A stretch of DNA of 64,000 bases. It comes from Streptomyces tsukubensis (GTDB taxonomy: Bacteria > Actinomycetota > Actinomycetes > Streptomycetales > Streptomycetaceae). The stretch covers positions 4,176,501 to 4,240,500 of the forward strand of contig NZ_CP020700.1 in NCBI RefSeq assembly GCF_003932715.1, given 5' to 3'. Under the pieces are notes generated by a model that worked only from the letters and a program-made list of their open reading frames with translations, did not search any database and was not told the DNA's origin. Position numbers and translations under genes: made by a program. Positions 48,854-52,407 of the stretch are shown piece after piece. Every line of letters starts with the position of its first letter. The first letter of the stretch is position 1.

Positions 48854-50035
48854 ATGAACACGAAGGACTTCGTCGAGAAGGACTACTACAAGGTCCTCGG
48901 CGTCCCCAAGGACGCCACCGAAGCCGAGATCAAGAAGGCGTACCGGAAGCTCGCCCGCGAGTTCCACCCGGACGCCAACAAGGGTGACAACAAGGCGGAG
49001 GAGCGCTTCAAGGAGATCTCCGAGGCCAATGACATCCTCGGCGACCCCAAGCGGCGCAAGGAGTACGACGAGGCCCGCGCCCTCTTCGGCAACGGCGGCT
49101 TCCGCGCCGGGCCGGGCGGCGGCAGCTTCAACTTCGACCTGGGCGACCTCTTCGGAGGCGCCCAGGGCGGGGGCCCCCAGCCCGGCGGGGCCGGTGGCTT
49201 CGGCGGCGGTCTGGGCGATGTGTTCGGCGGGCTGTTCAACCGCGGTGCGGGCGCCGGGACCCGGGTCCAGCCGCGGCGCGGCCAGGACATCGAGTCCGAG
49301 GTGACGCTCAGCTTCACCGAGGCCGTCGACGGGGCCACGGTCCCGCTGCGGATGTCCAGCTCCGCGGCGTGCAAGGCCTGTTCCGGCACCGGCGACAAGA
49401 ACGGCAACCCCCGGGTCTGCCCGACCTGCGTCGGCACCGGCCAGGTCTCCCGCGGCGGCAGCGGCTCCTTCTCGCTGACCGATCCCTGTGTGGACTGCAA
49501 GGGCCGCGGGCTGATCGCCCAGGACCCCTGCGAGGTCTGCAAGGGCAGCGGACGGGCCCGCTCCTCGCGCACCATGCAGGTGCGGATCCCGGCGGGCGTC
49601 TCCGACGGCCAGCGGATCCGGCTGCGCGGCAAGGGAGCCCCGGGCGAGCGCGGCGGCCCGGCCGGTGACCTCTATGTCGTCGTCCATGTCGGCGAGCACC
49701 CCGTGTTCGGCCGCCGTGGCGACAACCTGACCGTCACCGTGCCCGTGACGTACACGGAGGCCGTACTGGGCGGCGAGGTCAAGGTGCCCACGCTCGGCGG
49801 CCCGCCGGTGACCCTGAAGCTGCCCGCGGGCACGCCCAACGGGCGCACCATGCGGGCCCGCGGCAAGGGAGCGGTCCGCAAGGACGGCACCCGCGGCGAT
49901 CTGCTGGTCACCGTGGAGGTGACGGTCCCGAAGGATCTGAGCGGCAAGGCGAAGGAAGCGCTGGAGGCCTATCGCGAGGCCACCGCGGACGAGGACCCGA
50001 GGGCCGAGCTCTTCGAGGCCGCGAAGGGAGCATGA
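48854..50035 (+). CDS. dnaJ: Co-chaperone DnaJ
   Basis: A 393-residue type I DnaJ. The J domain (YYKVLGVPKDATEAEIKKAYRKLAREFHPDANKGD) has HPD, a Gly/Phe-rich linker follows, then four zinc repeats CKACSGTG, CPTCVGTG, CVDCKGRG, CEVCKGSG, and the C-terminal substrate domains (SRTMQVRIPAGVSDGQRIRLRGKG). ATG start with GGAGGGACGTCG. ATGA overlap with hspR. Confidence 0.98.
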   Translation: MNTKDFVEKDYYKVLGVPKDATEAEIKKAYRKLAREFHPDANKGDNKAEERFKEISEANDILGDPKRRKEYDEARALFGNGGFRAGPGGGSFNFDLGDLFGGAQGGGPQPGGAGGFGGGLGDVFGGLFNRGAGAGTRVQPRRGQDIESEVTLSFTEAVDGATVPLRMSSSAACKACSGTGDKNGNPRVCPTCVGTGQVSRGGSGSFSLTDPCVDCKGRGLIAQDPCEVCKGSGRARSSRTMQVRIPAGVSDGQRIRLRGKGAPGERGGPAGDLYVVVHVGEHPVFGRRGDNLTVTVPVTYTEAVLGGEVKVPTLGGPPVTLKLPAGTPNGRTMRARGKGAVRKDGTRGDLLVTVEVTVPKDLSGKAKEALEAYREATADEDPRAELFEAAKGA

Positions 50036-50487
50036 GGACGATGGACGGAAGGCGCCGCAACCCCTACGAACTGACCGACGAGTCACCGGTGTACGTGATC
50101 TCGGTGGCGGCCCAGCTCTCCGGGCTGCACCCGCAGACGCTGCGGCAGTACGACCGGCTGGGGCTGGTCTCCCCCGACCGTACGGCGGGCCGGGGGCGGC
50201 GCTACTCCGCCCGGGACATCGAACTGCTCCGTACGGTGCAGCAGTTGTCCCAGGACGAGGGCATCAACCTCGCGGGCATCAAGCGCATCATCGAGCTGGA
50301 GAACCAGGTCGCGGCGCTCCAGTCCCGGGTGGCCGAGCTGACGGCCGCGGTCGAGGGCGCGGCGGCGGCGATGCGGCAGCGCGAATCGCAGGTCCACGCC
50401 TCGTACCGGCGCGATCTGGTGCCGTACCAGGACGTGCAGCAGGCGAGCGCGCTGGTCGTATGGCGGCCCAAGCGCCCCGGCGAGTAG
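50032..50487 (+). CDS. hspR: HspR heat-shock repressor (MerR family)
   Basis: A 151-residue MerR-type repressor. The winged helix is PVYVISVAAQLSGLHPQTLRQYDRLGLVSPDRTAGRGRRYSARDIELLRTVQQL, followed by a coiled-coil dimerisation helix (EGINLAGIKRIIELENQVAALQSRVAELTAAVEGAAAAMRQRESQVHASYRR). The C-terminus VVWRPKRPGE is the HspR signature tail. The ATG at 50032 overlaps the dnaJ stop; the internal ATG at 50041 is an alternative. It binds HAIR sites with DnaK as corepressor, repressing its own operon and clpB. Confidence 0.96.
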   Translation: MRTMDGRRRNPYELTDESPVYVISVAAQLSGLHPQTLRQYDRLGLVSPDRTAGRGRRYSARDIELLRTVQQLSQDEGINLAGIKRIIELENQVAALQSRVAELTAAVEGAAAAMRQRESQVHASYRRDLVPYQDVQQASALVVWRPKRPGE

Positions 50488-50506: not shown

Positions 50507-50566
50507 CACCGGCGTACAGCACACCGGCGTACAGCACACCGGCGTACAGCACGCCGGTGGACAGCG
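50507..50566. repeat. 15-bp tandem repeat downstream of hspR
   Basis: Three exact copies of CACCGGCGTACAGCA (50507-50551) and one degenerate copy (to 50566), in the gap between hspR and the convergent LuxR-type gene. It contains no gene. It may be a terminator-proximal or recombination-prone tract. Confidence 0.85.
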
Positions 50567-50638: not shown

Positions 50639-51637
50639 TCAGCCCGCCGAGGTCGGCGTTTCGTGCTCCAGGATTCCCGACTGGGCGATCAGATACCCCA
50701 GTTGGGTACGGCTGCCGCTGCCCAGCGACGAGCCGAGTTTGGCGATATGGGCCCGGCAGGTCCGGACGTTCATCCCCAGCCGGCGGGCGATTGCCTCGTC
50801 GACATGCCCCTCCACCAGCAGTTTGGCGATGGAGCGCTGGACACCCGTCACCCCGTTGAGATCGGGGCCGTACGAGATGGGCTCGTCCCACGGCAGTCCG
50901 TGCAGCCAGAACTGCTCGAAGACGCCGACCAGATAGTCCACGATCCCCTTGTGCCGCAGCTCCAGAGCGAACAGCCGGTCGCTGCTGGCGGGGATGAAGG
51001 CCACCTTCCGGTCCACGATGATCAGCCGGTCGATGATTTCTTCGAGGGTGCGCACCTCCACTCCGGACGGGCCGACCTTCTCCATATAGGAGAGCGTGGC
51101 GGGATGGTGGCGGGCGGTGTGCTGGTAGAGGGTCCGCATCCGGACCCCGCGTTCGATCAGCGGCTGCACCCGGTGCAGCGCCTTCTCCAGGGAGTGCGGC
51201 TGCCGTCCGCTGCCCGGCTGGACTGTGAGAAGCTCCTCCGTGCAGTCGGCGGTGACCTGGTCCAGACTGGCGTTGATCCGGTTGAGGCCTTCGAGGACGG
51301 TGATGCCGTCGGGCACGGGCGAGCCCTGGGCACTGATGGACATAAACGGTTCGAGAGCGTCGGTGAGGGCGACGGCCCGCCGGCGGCGGTCCTGGATCTC
51401 CCTCTCGATGGGGTGAATCAGTTGCGCCAGTGCCGTGGTGGGAGCAACCGGTCGGAGCCACTGGGCGTCATACGGGTCCGGATCGAGCAGTGCGAGGTCG
51501 AACAGGCAGGGCGCGGTCTCCGCCTCCAGCCGGGACAGCCGGCCGCTCCGCAGCGCGGTGATGTAAAGACTCTTTCCCGCCTCGCACAACTTGCCGTCTG
51601 AGTGAGGGTGTCCGAGTTCGCCCCCATGAGACGTCAT
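50639..51637 (-). CDS. LuxR-type transcriptional regulator
   Basis: A 333-residue regulator. Residues 1-230 include a helical sensor region (a LEKALHRVQPLIERGVRMRTLYQHTARHHPATLSYMEKV segment and EVRTLEEIIDRLIIVDRKVAFIPAS, the shape of TrmB-like/LuxR regulators). The C-terminal LuxR helix-turn-helix is GVTGVQRSIAKLLVEGHVDEAIARRLGMNVRTCRAHIAKLGSSLGSGSRTQLGYLIAQSGIL. ATG start preceded by GAGGGGG. An 11-bp perfect inverted repeat (51648-51674) overlaps its ribosome-site region, suggesting autoregulation. It diverges from the repeat-peptide gene at 51746. Confidence 0.88.
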   Translation of the reverse strand: MTSHGGELGHPHSDGKLCEAGKSLYITALRSGRLSRLEAETAPCLFDLALLDPDPYDAQWLRPVAPTTALAQLIHPIEREIQDRRRRAVALTDALEPFMSISAQGSPVPDGITVLEGLNRINASLDQVTADCTEELLTVQPGSGRQPHSLEKALHRVQPLIERGVRMRTLYQHTARHHPATLSYMEKVGPSGVEVRTLEEIIDRLIIVDRKVAFIPASSDRLFALELRHKGIVDYLVGVFEQFWLHGLPWDEPISYGPDLNGVTGVQRSIAKLLVEGHVDEAIARRLGMNVRTCRAHIAKLGSSLGSGSRTQLGYLIAQSGILEHETPTSAG

Positions 51638-51647
51638 ATGTACCCCC

Positions 51648-51674
51648 TCATGTTCCTGCATTACAGGAACATGA
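51648..51674. promoter_or_regulatory. Perfect 11-bp inverted repeat, probable operator
   Basis: TCATGTTCCTG-catta-CAGGAACATGA is a perfect 11-bp inverted repeat with a 5-base centre, in the 108-base gap between the divergent LuxR-type gene and the repeat-peptide gene. It begins 11 bases before the LuxR start and lies next to its ribosome site, and 72 bases from the peptide start, a natural control point for both. Confidence 0.75.
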
Positions 51675-51745
51675 TGCCTGCCGTCGCTGGTGCAAGCGTT
51701 CGGAGTGAGACATCGTCTTATGCGCGGGGGAGGAGGAATGATCAA

Positions 51746-51997
51746 ATGAGGTGGAGATCACCCATGTCTAGGACGCTACGTGCGCTATGTGCTCTTGCCT
51801 TGGCGGGCGCCGCGCTGGGCGCGGCCGGATTCACCGGCGAGCCCTCTTGGGAGCGCGTCCCCGCAGCCGTCGCGGCGGCGGACCAGGGTGAGCCCTCGTG
51901 GGAGGTCGGTGGACCGTTCGCGGCGGCCACTGCCGACGACGGCGAGCCTTCCTGGGAACTCACCACCGCACCTGCTTCCGAAGGTGCGGACGCATGA
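51746..51997 (+). CDS. Exported peptide with three GEPSWE repeats
   Basis: An 83-residue exported peptide. A basic start (MRWRSPMSRTLR) and hydrophobic core (ALCALALAGAALGAAGF) form a Sec-type signal. Three identical GEPSWE hexads follow at residues 31-36, 48-53 and 66-71, spaced 17 and 18 residues by variable alanine-rich linkers. The DNA of the hexads differs at several silent positions (ggcgagccctcttgggag, ggtgagccctcgtgggag, ggcgagccttcctgggaa), so the peptide sequence is conserved by selection. AGGAGG lies nine bases ahead of ATG 51746; ATG 51764 is also possible. Stop overlaps the next start (ATGA). Possibly a multi-core precursor or a repeat-binding peptide. Confidence 0.72.
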   Translation: MRWRSPMSRTLRALCALALAGAALGAAGFTGEPSWERVPAAVAAADQGEPSWEVGGPFAAATADDGEPSWELTTAPASEGADA

Positions 51998-52320
51998 CCG
52001 TTCCACCGGATGACCGCTCCTTCCGGCGCGAGATGGCCACGGCCTACCGCTCCGGGTGGCATTTCATCGACCTCGTCACGGCCATTCCCCACCGAGGCGA
52101 CTCGTTGATGGTCACCCTGTTCGGCGAGCCGATCGTCGTGGCCCGCGAGGAGGACGAGGACGTCCGCGCCTACCGGTGCCTCCGCCGTCCGAGGGGCGCG
52201 CCGCAGCCCGTCCGCTGCGCCATCCGATACGGAATGATTTTTGTGAACCTCGACCAGCGCGACCACCGGCTGGCCGATCCGGACACCAACACCACCCGAG
52301 CCACCCCCCGAAGTGCCTGA
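51994..52320 (+). CDS. Small Rieske-fold-like protein lacking His ligands
   Basis: A 108-residue protein translationally coupled to the GEPSWE peptide (ATGA). The order of segments follows the N-terminal Rieske domain of ring-hydroxylating oxygenases: SGWHFIDLVTAIPHRGDSLMVTLFGEPIVVAREEDEDVRAYRCLRR, then CAIRYGMIFVNLDQRD. The two ligand sites that should be C-x-H and C-x2-H read C62-L-R64 and C75-A-I-R78, so both histidines are arginine while both cysteines remain. A normal 2Fe-2S cluster is therefore unlikely. It may be a structural partner or use another cofactor. Downstream is an 18-bp stem hairpin. Confidence 0.62.
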   Translation: MTVPPDDRSFRREMATAYRSGWHFIDLVTAIPHRGDSLMVTLFGEPIVVAREEDEDVRAYRCLRRPRGAPQPVRCAIRYGMIFVNLDQRDHRLADPDTNTTRATPRSA

Positions 52321-52362
52321 GCGATTCCCCCGTCGTTCCAGATCGCTCCGGCACATCCCCCA

Positions 52363-52407
52363 CACAGCGGCGCCATCGCGGACCTGAAACGCGATGGCGC
52401 CGCTGTG
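52363..52407. terminator. 18-bp perfect hairpin between convergent genes
   Basis: CACAGCGGCGCCATCGCG pairs perfectly with its complement after a 9-base loop. It ends the GEPSWE/Rieske-like transcript and lies ahead of the convergent PPOX gene. Confidence 0.75.

Follow-up and report, generated by a model that had tools for sequence, protein, structure and literature searches.

In the ComS–ComR system of streptococci, the signal XIP carries a Trp-Trp motif and is recognized by an Rgg-type receptor with tetratricopeptide repeats (TPR). In PapR–PlcR and the other RRNPP pairs of Bacillota, the gene of an exported small precursor lies beside that of a cytoplasmic transcription factor. According to the available part of PMC10075063, which also treats RRNPP systems, Bacillota as a rule signal with genetically encoded oligopeptides, while the signals of Actinomycetota are typically small molecules made by enzymes; the accessible text of a further review (PMC4748050) states that actinobacteria use ‘cyclic or modified peptides’ and gamma-butyrolactones. 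One peptide signal of Streptomyces, the 655-Da factor of Streptomyces coelicolor, is imported by the oligopeptide permease BldK (PMC9640686, available excerpt). Here, we describe a divergent gene unit at positions 50639..52407 of a 64,000-nucleotide (nt) stretch of Streptomyces tsukubensis NZ_CP020700.1 (the whole stretch is referred to as the window), in which the gene of a TrmB–LuxR regulator faces those of a small export-like peptide with repeated Trp-ending tetrads and of a Rieske-like protein of 108 amino acids (aa). This trio is conserved across Streptomyces; the tetrad word is held all but identical within a species by selection, it covaries with the regulator and the design is repeated elsewhere. 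We favour, as reasonably probable, the reading that the peptide is a secreted signal and the neighbouring TrmB–LuxR regulator its one-component receptor.

The locus resembles PapR–PlcR and the RRNPP systems in its short, polymorphic, often C-terminal signal and its co-varying receptor, and the adjacent small precursor expected of such systems, apparently exported, is present at 139/139 loci. It differs in its host group, the actinomycetes, in precursors with up to seven Trp units, and in a receptor composed of a TrmB winged helix, a PLD-like domain and a LuxR-type helix-turn-helix (HTH), with no TPR seen. The system would work like PapR–PlcR, yet not be a member of RRNPP, as its receptor shows no TPR. 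With ComS–ComR it shares a small precursor, a Trp-based C-terminal signal and an adjacent receptor gene, but the receptor there is of the Rgg type and no relation to the TrmB–LuxR regulator was seen. No description of the Trp-motif peptide family was found in the open-access literature, a weak negative because bioRxiv and most subscription journals were not covered, and the available parts of the open-access literature likewise contain no account of a linear, gene-encoded Streptomyces peptide paired with a receptor gene of its own.

The peptide and its tetrad word

The window peptide carries the hexad GEPSWE at residues 25, 42 and 60, in copies that differ at silent positions, and the tetrad core of this hexad is E-P-S-W. 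To collect its relatives, the 108-aa protein was searched in 84,980 species genomes, which gave at least 548 confirmed stretches, and the best 80 of the 548 were kept (L001–L080). Together with 59 loci from further genomes, 139 loci with the 108-aa gene were read, all of them best-scoring and including some same-species repeats and the window itself. At 139/139 loci, a small open reading frame (ORF) with a basic N-terminus and a hydrophobic stretch ends at the start of the 108-aa gene; export was judged by sequence alone at every locus.

The tetrad statistics cover 96 distinct peptides from the first 113 loci and count each Trp past residue 20. There are 305 such residues, from one to seven per peptide and zero in none, and the position three residues before the Trp (W-3) is occupied by D in 205, E in 92 and N in four, that is, in 301/305. 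At least one [D/E/N]xxW is present in 94/96 peptides, the types including EPSW, EPTW, DSTW, DSSW, DSGW, DVGW, DLGW, DTVW, DTRW, DPIW, DPVW and DISW. Within a peptide the word hardly varies: all tetrads are identical in 68 of the 79 multi-Trp peptides, and agreement at the two inner positions reaches 97% for within-peptide pairs (453 pairs) versus 26% for pairs between peptides (40,875 pairs). The same residue is encoded in 1327/1359 within-peptide tetrad codon pairs, 473 of the 1327 being silently different, and spacer residues agree within peptides in only 523/1655 cases. The silent differences and the divergence of the spacers indicate that selection holds the tetrad letters equal, and not merely recent copying; codon identity in the tetrads is 0.64, against 0.45 expected for independent codons, so some of the unit copying is recent.

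In peptides with a single Trp, this residue is penultimate in 11/17 (for example, ...PADTVWD, or ...TTSDTIWS in the S. coelicolor group), which fits a released C-terminal peptide. A first-pass annotation of the window, made from its letters, had taken the hexad for a repeated functional unit, and this holds once the unit is reduced to its E-P-S-W core, which homologues keep as DSTW, DVGW, EPTW or DTRW. It had also proposed that homologues without the hexads would speak against this idea; to the letter the hexad does change, but the unit stays. Searches of the peptides against Pfam and NCBIfam, some of them with the window peptide given minus its first residue, returned none above cut-off.

One relative, from Streptomyces sp. 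NPDC004838 (P0003), is a mixed-word precursor in which three GEPSWE units are accompanied by the foreign-looking PDTAWGG and PDTSWGG. The factor imported by BldK was considered as a product of this family and dropped: its signal differs in that no unmodified, unit-bearing fragment of 3–10 residues from the S. coelicolor-group peptide of this locus has a mass of 652–658; the only fit is VAEVPAA, which is without the unit.

Covariation between the tetrad and the regulator

Distances were compared over 78 of the 80 loci, with distinct peptides and the commonest tetrad of each, using 499–999 permutations, which leave part of the shared ancestry in. Tetrad distance correlates most strongly with that of the central domain of the regulator (0.755), followed by its N-terminal part (0.646), its HTH (0.405), the Rieske-like protein (0.339) and ClpB (0.204). 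With the HTH, the Rieske-like protein and ClpB controlled, the central domain keeps a partial correlation of 0.70; conversely, with the central domain and the rest controlled, the values drop to -0.11 for the HTH, -0.10 for the Rieske-like protein and 0.11 for the N-terminal part. The central domain leads again among D/N-type loci (0.49, 57 loci), among E-type loci (0.68, 18 loci) and when one locus per tetrad is retained (0.58, 24 loci), and with the peptide leader as a further control its value is 0.38 for the full set and 0.28 for the D/N-type loci. Furthermore, 23 of the 25 regulator columns with the highest mutual information fall in 91–250. The covariation thus supports the regulator, via its PLD-like central domain, as the likely partner of the tetrad.

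Architecture of the regulator

An AlphaFold (AF2) model of the window regulator, built on a 66-row alignment (mean predicted local distance difference test score, pLDDT, 80.3; predicted template modelling score, pTM, 0.48), comprises an N-terminal winged helix, a long helix at 66–105, a PLD-like alpha/beta domain at about 112–246 and a LuxR-type HTH at about 265–320. Its top Foldseek matches are TrmBL2 (5bpd, E 6.4e-14), TrmB (3qph, E 7.5e-8) and the PLD-family nuclease Nuc (1byr, E 1.4e-7), and a profile search against the PDB returned TrmBL2 over 54–248 (E 1e-8) and the DevR/NarL HTH over about 254–322. As modelled, the protein is therefore TrmB-like, with a winged helix and a PLD-like ligand domain, although PF01978 (TrmB) is reached at E <= 0.01 by only 7/66 aligned regulators, the window member not among them. 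It also has a LuxR-type (GerE) HTH, a domain found at E <= 0.01 in 65/66 regulators, the window member lying under the Pfam cut-off (17.3 of 23.5 bits). Archaeal TrmB and TrmBL2 share the winged helix, the long helix and the PLD-like domain, but their entry titles name a sugar-binding domain and a chromatin protein, whereas the present protein carries an additional, C-terminally fused LuxR HTH and is encoded beside a peptide gene.

Pfam matches up to E 1 in the window regulator include neither a TPR nor an autoinducer-binding domain, and LasR/CviR rank below TrmBL2 and PLD proteins among the Foldseek matches. The protein is not an acyl-homoserine-lactone-type LuxR receptor, which has an autoinducer-binding domain before the HTH; the central domain here matches TrmBL2/PLD. 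Roughly counted, 52/80 loci have between two and six TrmB–LuxR paralogues in tandem in the upstream flank, beside the peptide gene (e.g. L048, L056, L069), a picture that would fit local diversification of receptors.

The same pairing at other loci

Four more regulator relatives (E <= 1e-5) are encoded in the S. tsukubensis genome, two of them matching along most of the protein at 32–34% identity. Near one, at locus L115 (= L148), an export-like ORF of 50 aa on the opposite strand ends in ...NDNMIWG. The L115 regulator was searched in 41 relatives, with matches in 27 genomes, and 30 paralogue loci were read. An export-like ORF with a penultimate Trp is present at 17/30 (16 convincing by eye), against 0/71 control pieces, these being 4-kb stretches that flank related loci towards clpB and are mutually non-independent. 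L171 and one of two ORFs at L160 look spurious and were discounted, and because L148 itself prompted the penultimate-Trp test, the count independent of it is 16/29. A better, internal control points the same way, with Trp at six other C-terminal positions in 1–3 of the 30 loci, while none of the other residues is penultimate at more than seven; earlier versions of the scan, which required an acid or Asn at W-3, gave 9/30 and 11/30 (controls 0 and 1 of 71). The endings include DAGWQ (repeated), DMSWQ, DLGWQ, GLIWD, GFGWD (twice), CGACWE and NISWD; the penultimate Trp is constant and the acid at W-3 is not universal.

These paralogue pairs stand without a Rieske gene. Of 59 sampled Streptomyces genomes that have no Rieske-like gene, 20 were searched and 19 contain relatives of the regulator. 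At 30 loci of these genomes, 15 penultimate-Trp matches reduce to nine distinct plausible -W-x peptides in nine genomes, once the doubtful L184 and L201 and four repeats of one peptide (L207, L209, L210, L211) are discounted. Among 197 genomes of the class, Streptomyces included, 82 have the regulator family.

Similar proteins of about 120 aa are encoded beside two paralogous regulators of the S. tsukubensis genome (L115:868-1224, minus strand; L116:3016-3384, plus strand) and are perhaps the counterpart of the Rieske-like gene. Many paralogue regulators (e.g. L160, L163–L168, L173) themselves end in ...GWL, ...GWI or nearly so, possibly an internal mimic of the ligand.

The Rieske-like protein

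A Rieske fold is moderately supported for the 108-aa protein, in line with the first-pass annotation: its predicted structure superposes on Rieske domains. Among 229 distinct sequences, R64 and R78 are invariant (229/229) and no His stands at any ligand position; Cys62 is kept in 219/229 and Cys75 in 220/229. Ring-hydroxylating oxygenases such as NagGH and GbcA have CxH...CxxH in their Rieske domains (consensus), in contrast to CxR...CxxR here, and the present protein has no catalytic domain. The intact ligand set of a Rieske tailoring enzyme is therefore absent, its histidines being replaced by R64 and R78. Because the replacement holds throughout, a normal Rieske [2Fe-2S] cluster is not expected, and the public name ‘(2Fe-2S)-binding protein’ is doubtful. 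A crude ratio of non-synonymous to synonymous substitution rates (dN/dS) of about 0.03 implies that the protein matters to the cell. In 207/229 sequences, it ends in ATPRSA after a variable linker. This ending looks like a docking or degradation tag.

Organization and conservation of the locus

The features of the unit are collected in Table 1. It sits between hspR (50032-50487) and clpB (from 53034), labels that were taken from reading the sequence without a family search; 3′ of the hairpin there is one minus-strand gene, then clpB. The elements that the first-pass annotation had described, namely the three hexads with silent DNA differences, the ATGA by which the peptide gene and the 108-aa gene overlap, the divergent LuxR-type regulator, the perfect 11-bp inverted repeat and the 18-bp hairpin, are all present.

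Table 1. Features of the divergent unit in window coordinates
Feature	Position	Strand	Remarks
TrmB–LuxR regulator	50639..51637	-	332 aa from ATG 51637; frame open as far as TTG 51745
Inverted repeat, candidate operator	51648..51674	.	11-bp perfect arms, 5-nt spacer
Export-like peptide precursor, 77 aa, three tetrad units	51764..51997	+	
Unit 1, GEPSWE	51836..51853	+	
Unit 2, GEPSWE	51887..51904	+	
Unit 3, GEPSWE	51941..51958	+	
Predicted Rieske-fold protein, 108 aa, without cluster histidines, C-terminal ATPRSA	51994..52320	+	Translational overlap with peptide gene
18-bp perfect hairpin, probable transcript end	52363..52407	+	T-run not found

By their titles, the best 80 of the 548 loci comprise 79 from Streptomyces and one from an ‘Actinobacteria bacterium’. 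A regulator homologue occupies the divergent position at 80/80 (L051 being cut by the contig and L055 in pieces), and clpB lies downstream at 80/80, at a distance of 3.4 kb in L049. The peptide stop codon lies four bases inside the 108-aa gene in 75 of the first 113 loci, the others ranging from -13 to +1. The 108-aa gene was matched in 333/392 sampled Streptomyces genomes, a few of the matches being weak, while in other genera, represented by 150 genomes of the family, the ten matches listed are all weak and fall in frames of 389–672 aa, i.e. large proteins such as oxygenases.

The core of the inverted repeat is present in 118/118 distinct loci at a near-constant distance, 75–120 nt upstream of the peptide start, and its arms are fully complementary in the window only. 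A stem of at least 12 bp within 140 nt is found at 77/80 loci. Scans of the locus for a sigma-70 promoter and for a T-run terminator found nothing.

At L055:4634-5654 (Streptomyces sp. DHE7-1), the peptide-adjacent regulator is split over several frames, perhaps through a sequencing error or as a broken gene. The gap between hspR and the regulator in the window contains a tandem repeat (50507-50566), in which CACCGGCGTACAGCA occurs three times unchanged and once more as a variant.

Members in S. coelicolor and actinorhodin

The Rieske-like protein of genome G246 is identical to one named S. violaceoruber, and five published S. coelicolor oligonucleotides for SCO2686 match a single regulator locus of this genome, L267 (four exactly, one with one mismatch). 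The L267 regulator has a divergent export-like ORF of 53 aa, ending in DDSQWG. A close relative of SCO2686 occurs in 11/199 Streptomyces genomes, one of them 99% identical, and seven of the 11 regulators have a penultimate-Trp ORF beside them, with D at W-3 in all seven (DSQWG, DSAWG twice, DPGWV, DPEWG, DPGWP and DHGWG). At the hspR–clpB locus of G246, successive regulators are 394, 327 and 345 aa long. SCO3666 and SCO3665 are published with lengths of 394 and 327 aa (available part of PMC3282765), so the peptide-adjacent 345-aa regulator is, by order, SCO3664. With this assignment, which is made here, both SCO3664 and SCO2686 appear as regulators that adjoin Trp-motif peptides.

Both genes emerged from a transposon screen, the accessible text of which (PMC6585502) lists SCO3664 and SCO2686 insertions as hits in actinorhodin down-modulators, with the SCO3664 insertion among those that increase actinorhodin >50-fold. 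Complementation restored 12/16 tested mutants, and plasmids are listed for SCO3664 and SCO2686, whose membership in the 12 is unstated in the same part of the source; the peptide genes are not mentioned there. The ArgR sites published for SCO2686 (PMC5839063, available part) match L267:1435-1575, between and near the starts of the regulator and the divergent peptide, and could link arginine control to the peptide pair.

Proposed mechanism and alternative explanations

If the locus encodes a peptide signal and its receptor, the precursor would be exported through its N-terminal signal sequence, and extracellular proteolysis would free short E-P-S-W tetrad peptides, three copies per precursor. 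These may re-enter the cell via an oligopeptide permease, by analogy with PapR/PlcR, and would be bound by the divergent regulator through its PLD-like central domain, a step that the covariation supports. The conserved inverted repeat that separates the two genes would be one site of action of the regulator; distant targets would be others, antibiotic production among them, and for the two S. coelicolor members such an effect of the gene is published. The species-specific letters of the tetrad would constitute a self-recognition code, and the Rieske-like protein may be a cytoplasmic accessory of the locus, without a normal [2Fe-2S] cluster.

Several points weigh against this proposal. We infer each of the steps from export through cleavage and import to binding, and also which way the effect goes. 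Two of the 96 peptides carry only FTEW or ITEW, and in peptides with several Trp the last one is penultimate in only 9/79, so release from multi-unit precursors needs internal cuts. In the S. tsukubensis genome, TCCTG-N5/6-CAGGAAC has six matches (two of them both strands of this site) versus seven for the reversed control; no second operator can thus be distinguished from chance, and no regulon can be named. Outside the order, a penultimate-Trp ORF accompanies 4/34 regulator loci, those at L230 and L236 being plausible and those at L255 and L261 not. As for the covariation, the 80 loci were selected by closeness in the Rieske-like protein, which leaves less variance in that protein and weakens its comparison. 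Given the central domain, the N-terminal part of the regulator retains a share (0.11 over all loci, 0.225 in the D/N-type) and so does the leader (0.32 over all loci), and the Rieske-like protein keeps 0.22 with the tetrad in the 18 E-type loci. Since regulator, peptide and leader are linked, joint inheritance could yield part of the covariation.

Joint inheritance by recombination, without any physical contact, is accordingly one explanation to be weighed, and the adjoining genes and the correlation between leader and central domain (0.81 over all loci, 0.65 in the D/N-type) favour it. Mere linkage should, however, have made the Rieske-like protein track the tetrad, as its gene overlaps the peptide gene, yet over all loci it does not; the N-terminal part of the regulator, whose coding sequence is closer to the peptide gene than that of the central part, follows less (0.65 versus 0.755); and given the central domain, the leader adds nothing in the D/N-type (0.009, not significant). 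We consider this explanation unlikely. Covariation with the regulator, together with the multiple copies and their internal units, would also be accounted for if the small protein stayed unprocessed and itself contacted the regulator, whether at the membrane or in the cytoplasm, as a cis-acting anti-regulator with several docking motifs rather than as a diffusible signal, its short N-terminal hydrophobic segment being a possible uncleaved anchor. Such an arrangement seems distinctly improbable, given that the Trp of the paralogues is exactly penultimate, as for a released C-terminal peptide, and that a basic N-terminus predicts, by a general rule, a motif outside the membrane.

The repeats might alternatively belong to an extracellular ligand or inhibitor directed at an outside partner, such as a protease or an envelope component, with the regulator only controlling expression. 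The export-like precursor, the repeated motifs and the operator-like site conserved in the promoter region that both genes share agree with this very unlikely alternative, which leaves unexplained both that the central domain, and not the HTH, tracks the tetrad and that the same pairing exists at other loci. The covariation points to the regulator, which the first-pass annotation had cast as a controller of the operon, as the partner of the tetrad. Rieske-type enzymes carry out oxidations, and the first-pass annotation had suggested an action of the Rieske-like protein on or with the peptide, as in a ribosomally synthesized and post-translationally modified peptide (RiPP) whose units are cores modified by the overlapping gene product. 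The expected pairing of the two genes is indeed borne out, as they are tightly coupled and co-conserved at 139/139 loci, and the residual correlation in the E-type loci is on the same side. Against an action on the peptide stand the Arg in place of the cluster histidines in 229/229 sequences and the loss of Cys62 or Cys75 in some, the disappearance of the tetrad–Rieske correlation over all loci once the regulator is controlled (partial correlation -0.10), the recurrence of this peptide design in genomes that lack the Rieske-like gene, and a trio that holds no other modifying enzyme. A RiPP-like precursor is thus highly improbable.

Implications

More broadly, and more tentatively than for the single locus, streptomycetes and some relatives in their order may possess a family of peptide pheromones, short words centred on Trp that vary with species and locus and are each read by a TrmB–LuxR receptor of their own, and these pairs would gate antibiotic production. 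The hspR–clpB locus would be the conserved member, found almost throughout the genus, with as many as about six receptors in an array and with a cluster-less Rieske protein put to new use. If this is true, such a pair, found in the majority of the genus and with two members tied to the control of actinorhodin, would make the addition of a short synthetic peptide a simple handle on antibiotic pathways. The natural series of matched words and receptors would likewise lend itself to the study of how signal specificity evolves, alongside a Rieske fold that is kept genus-wide under strong selection without its cluster histidines.

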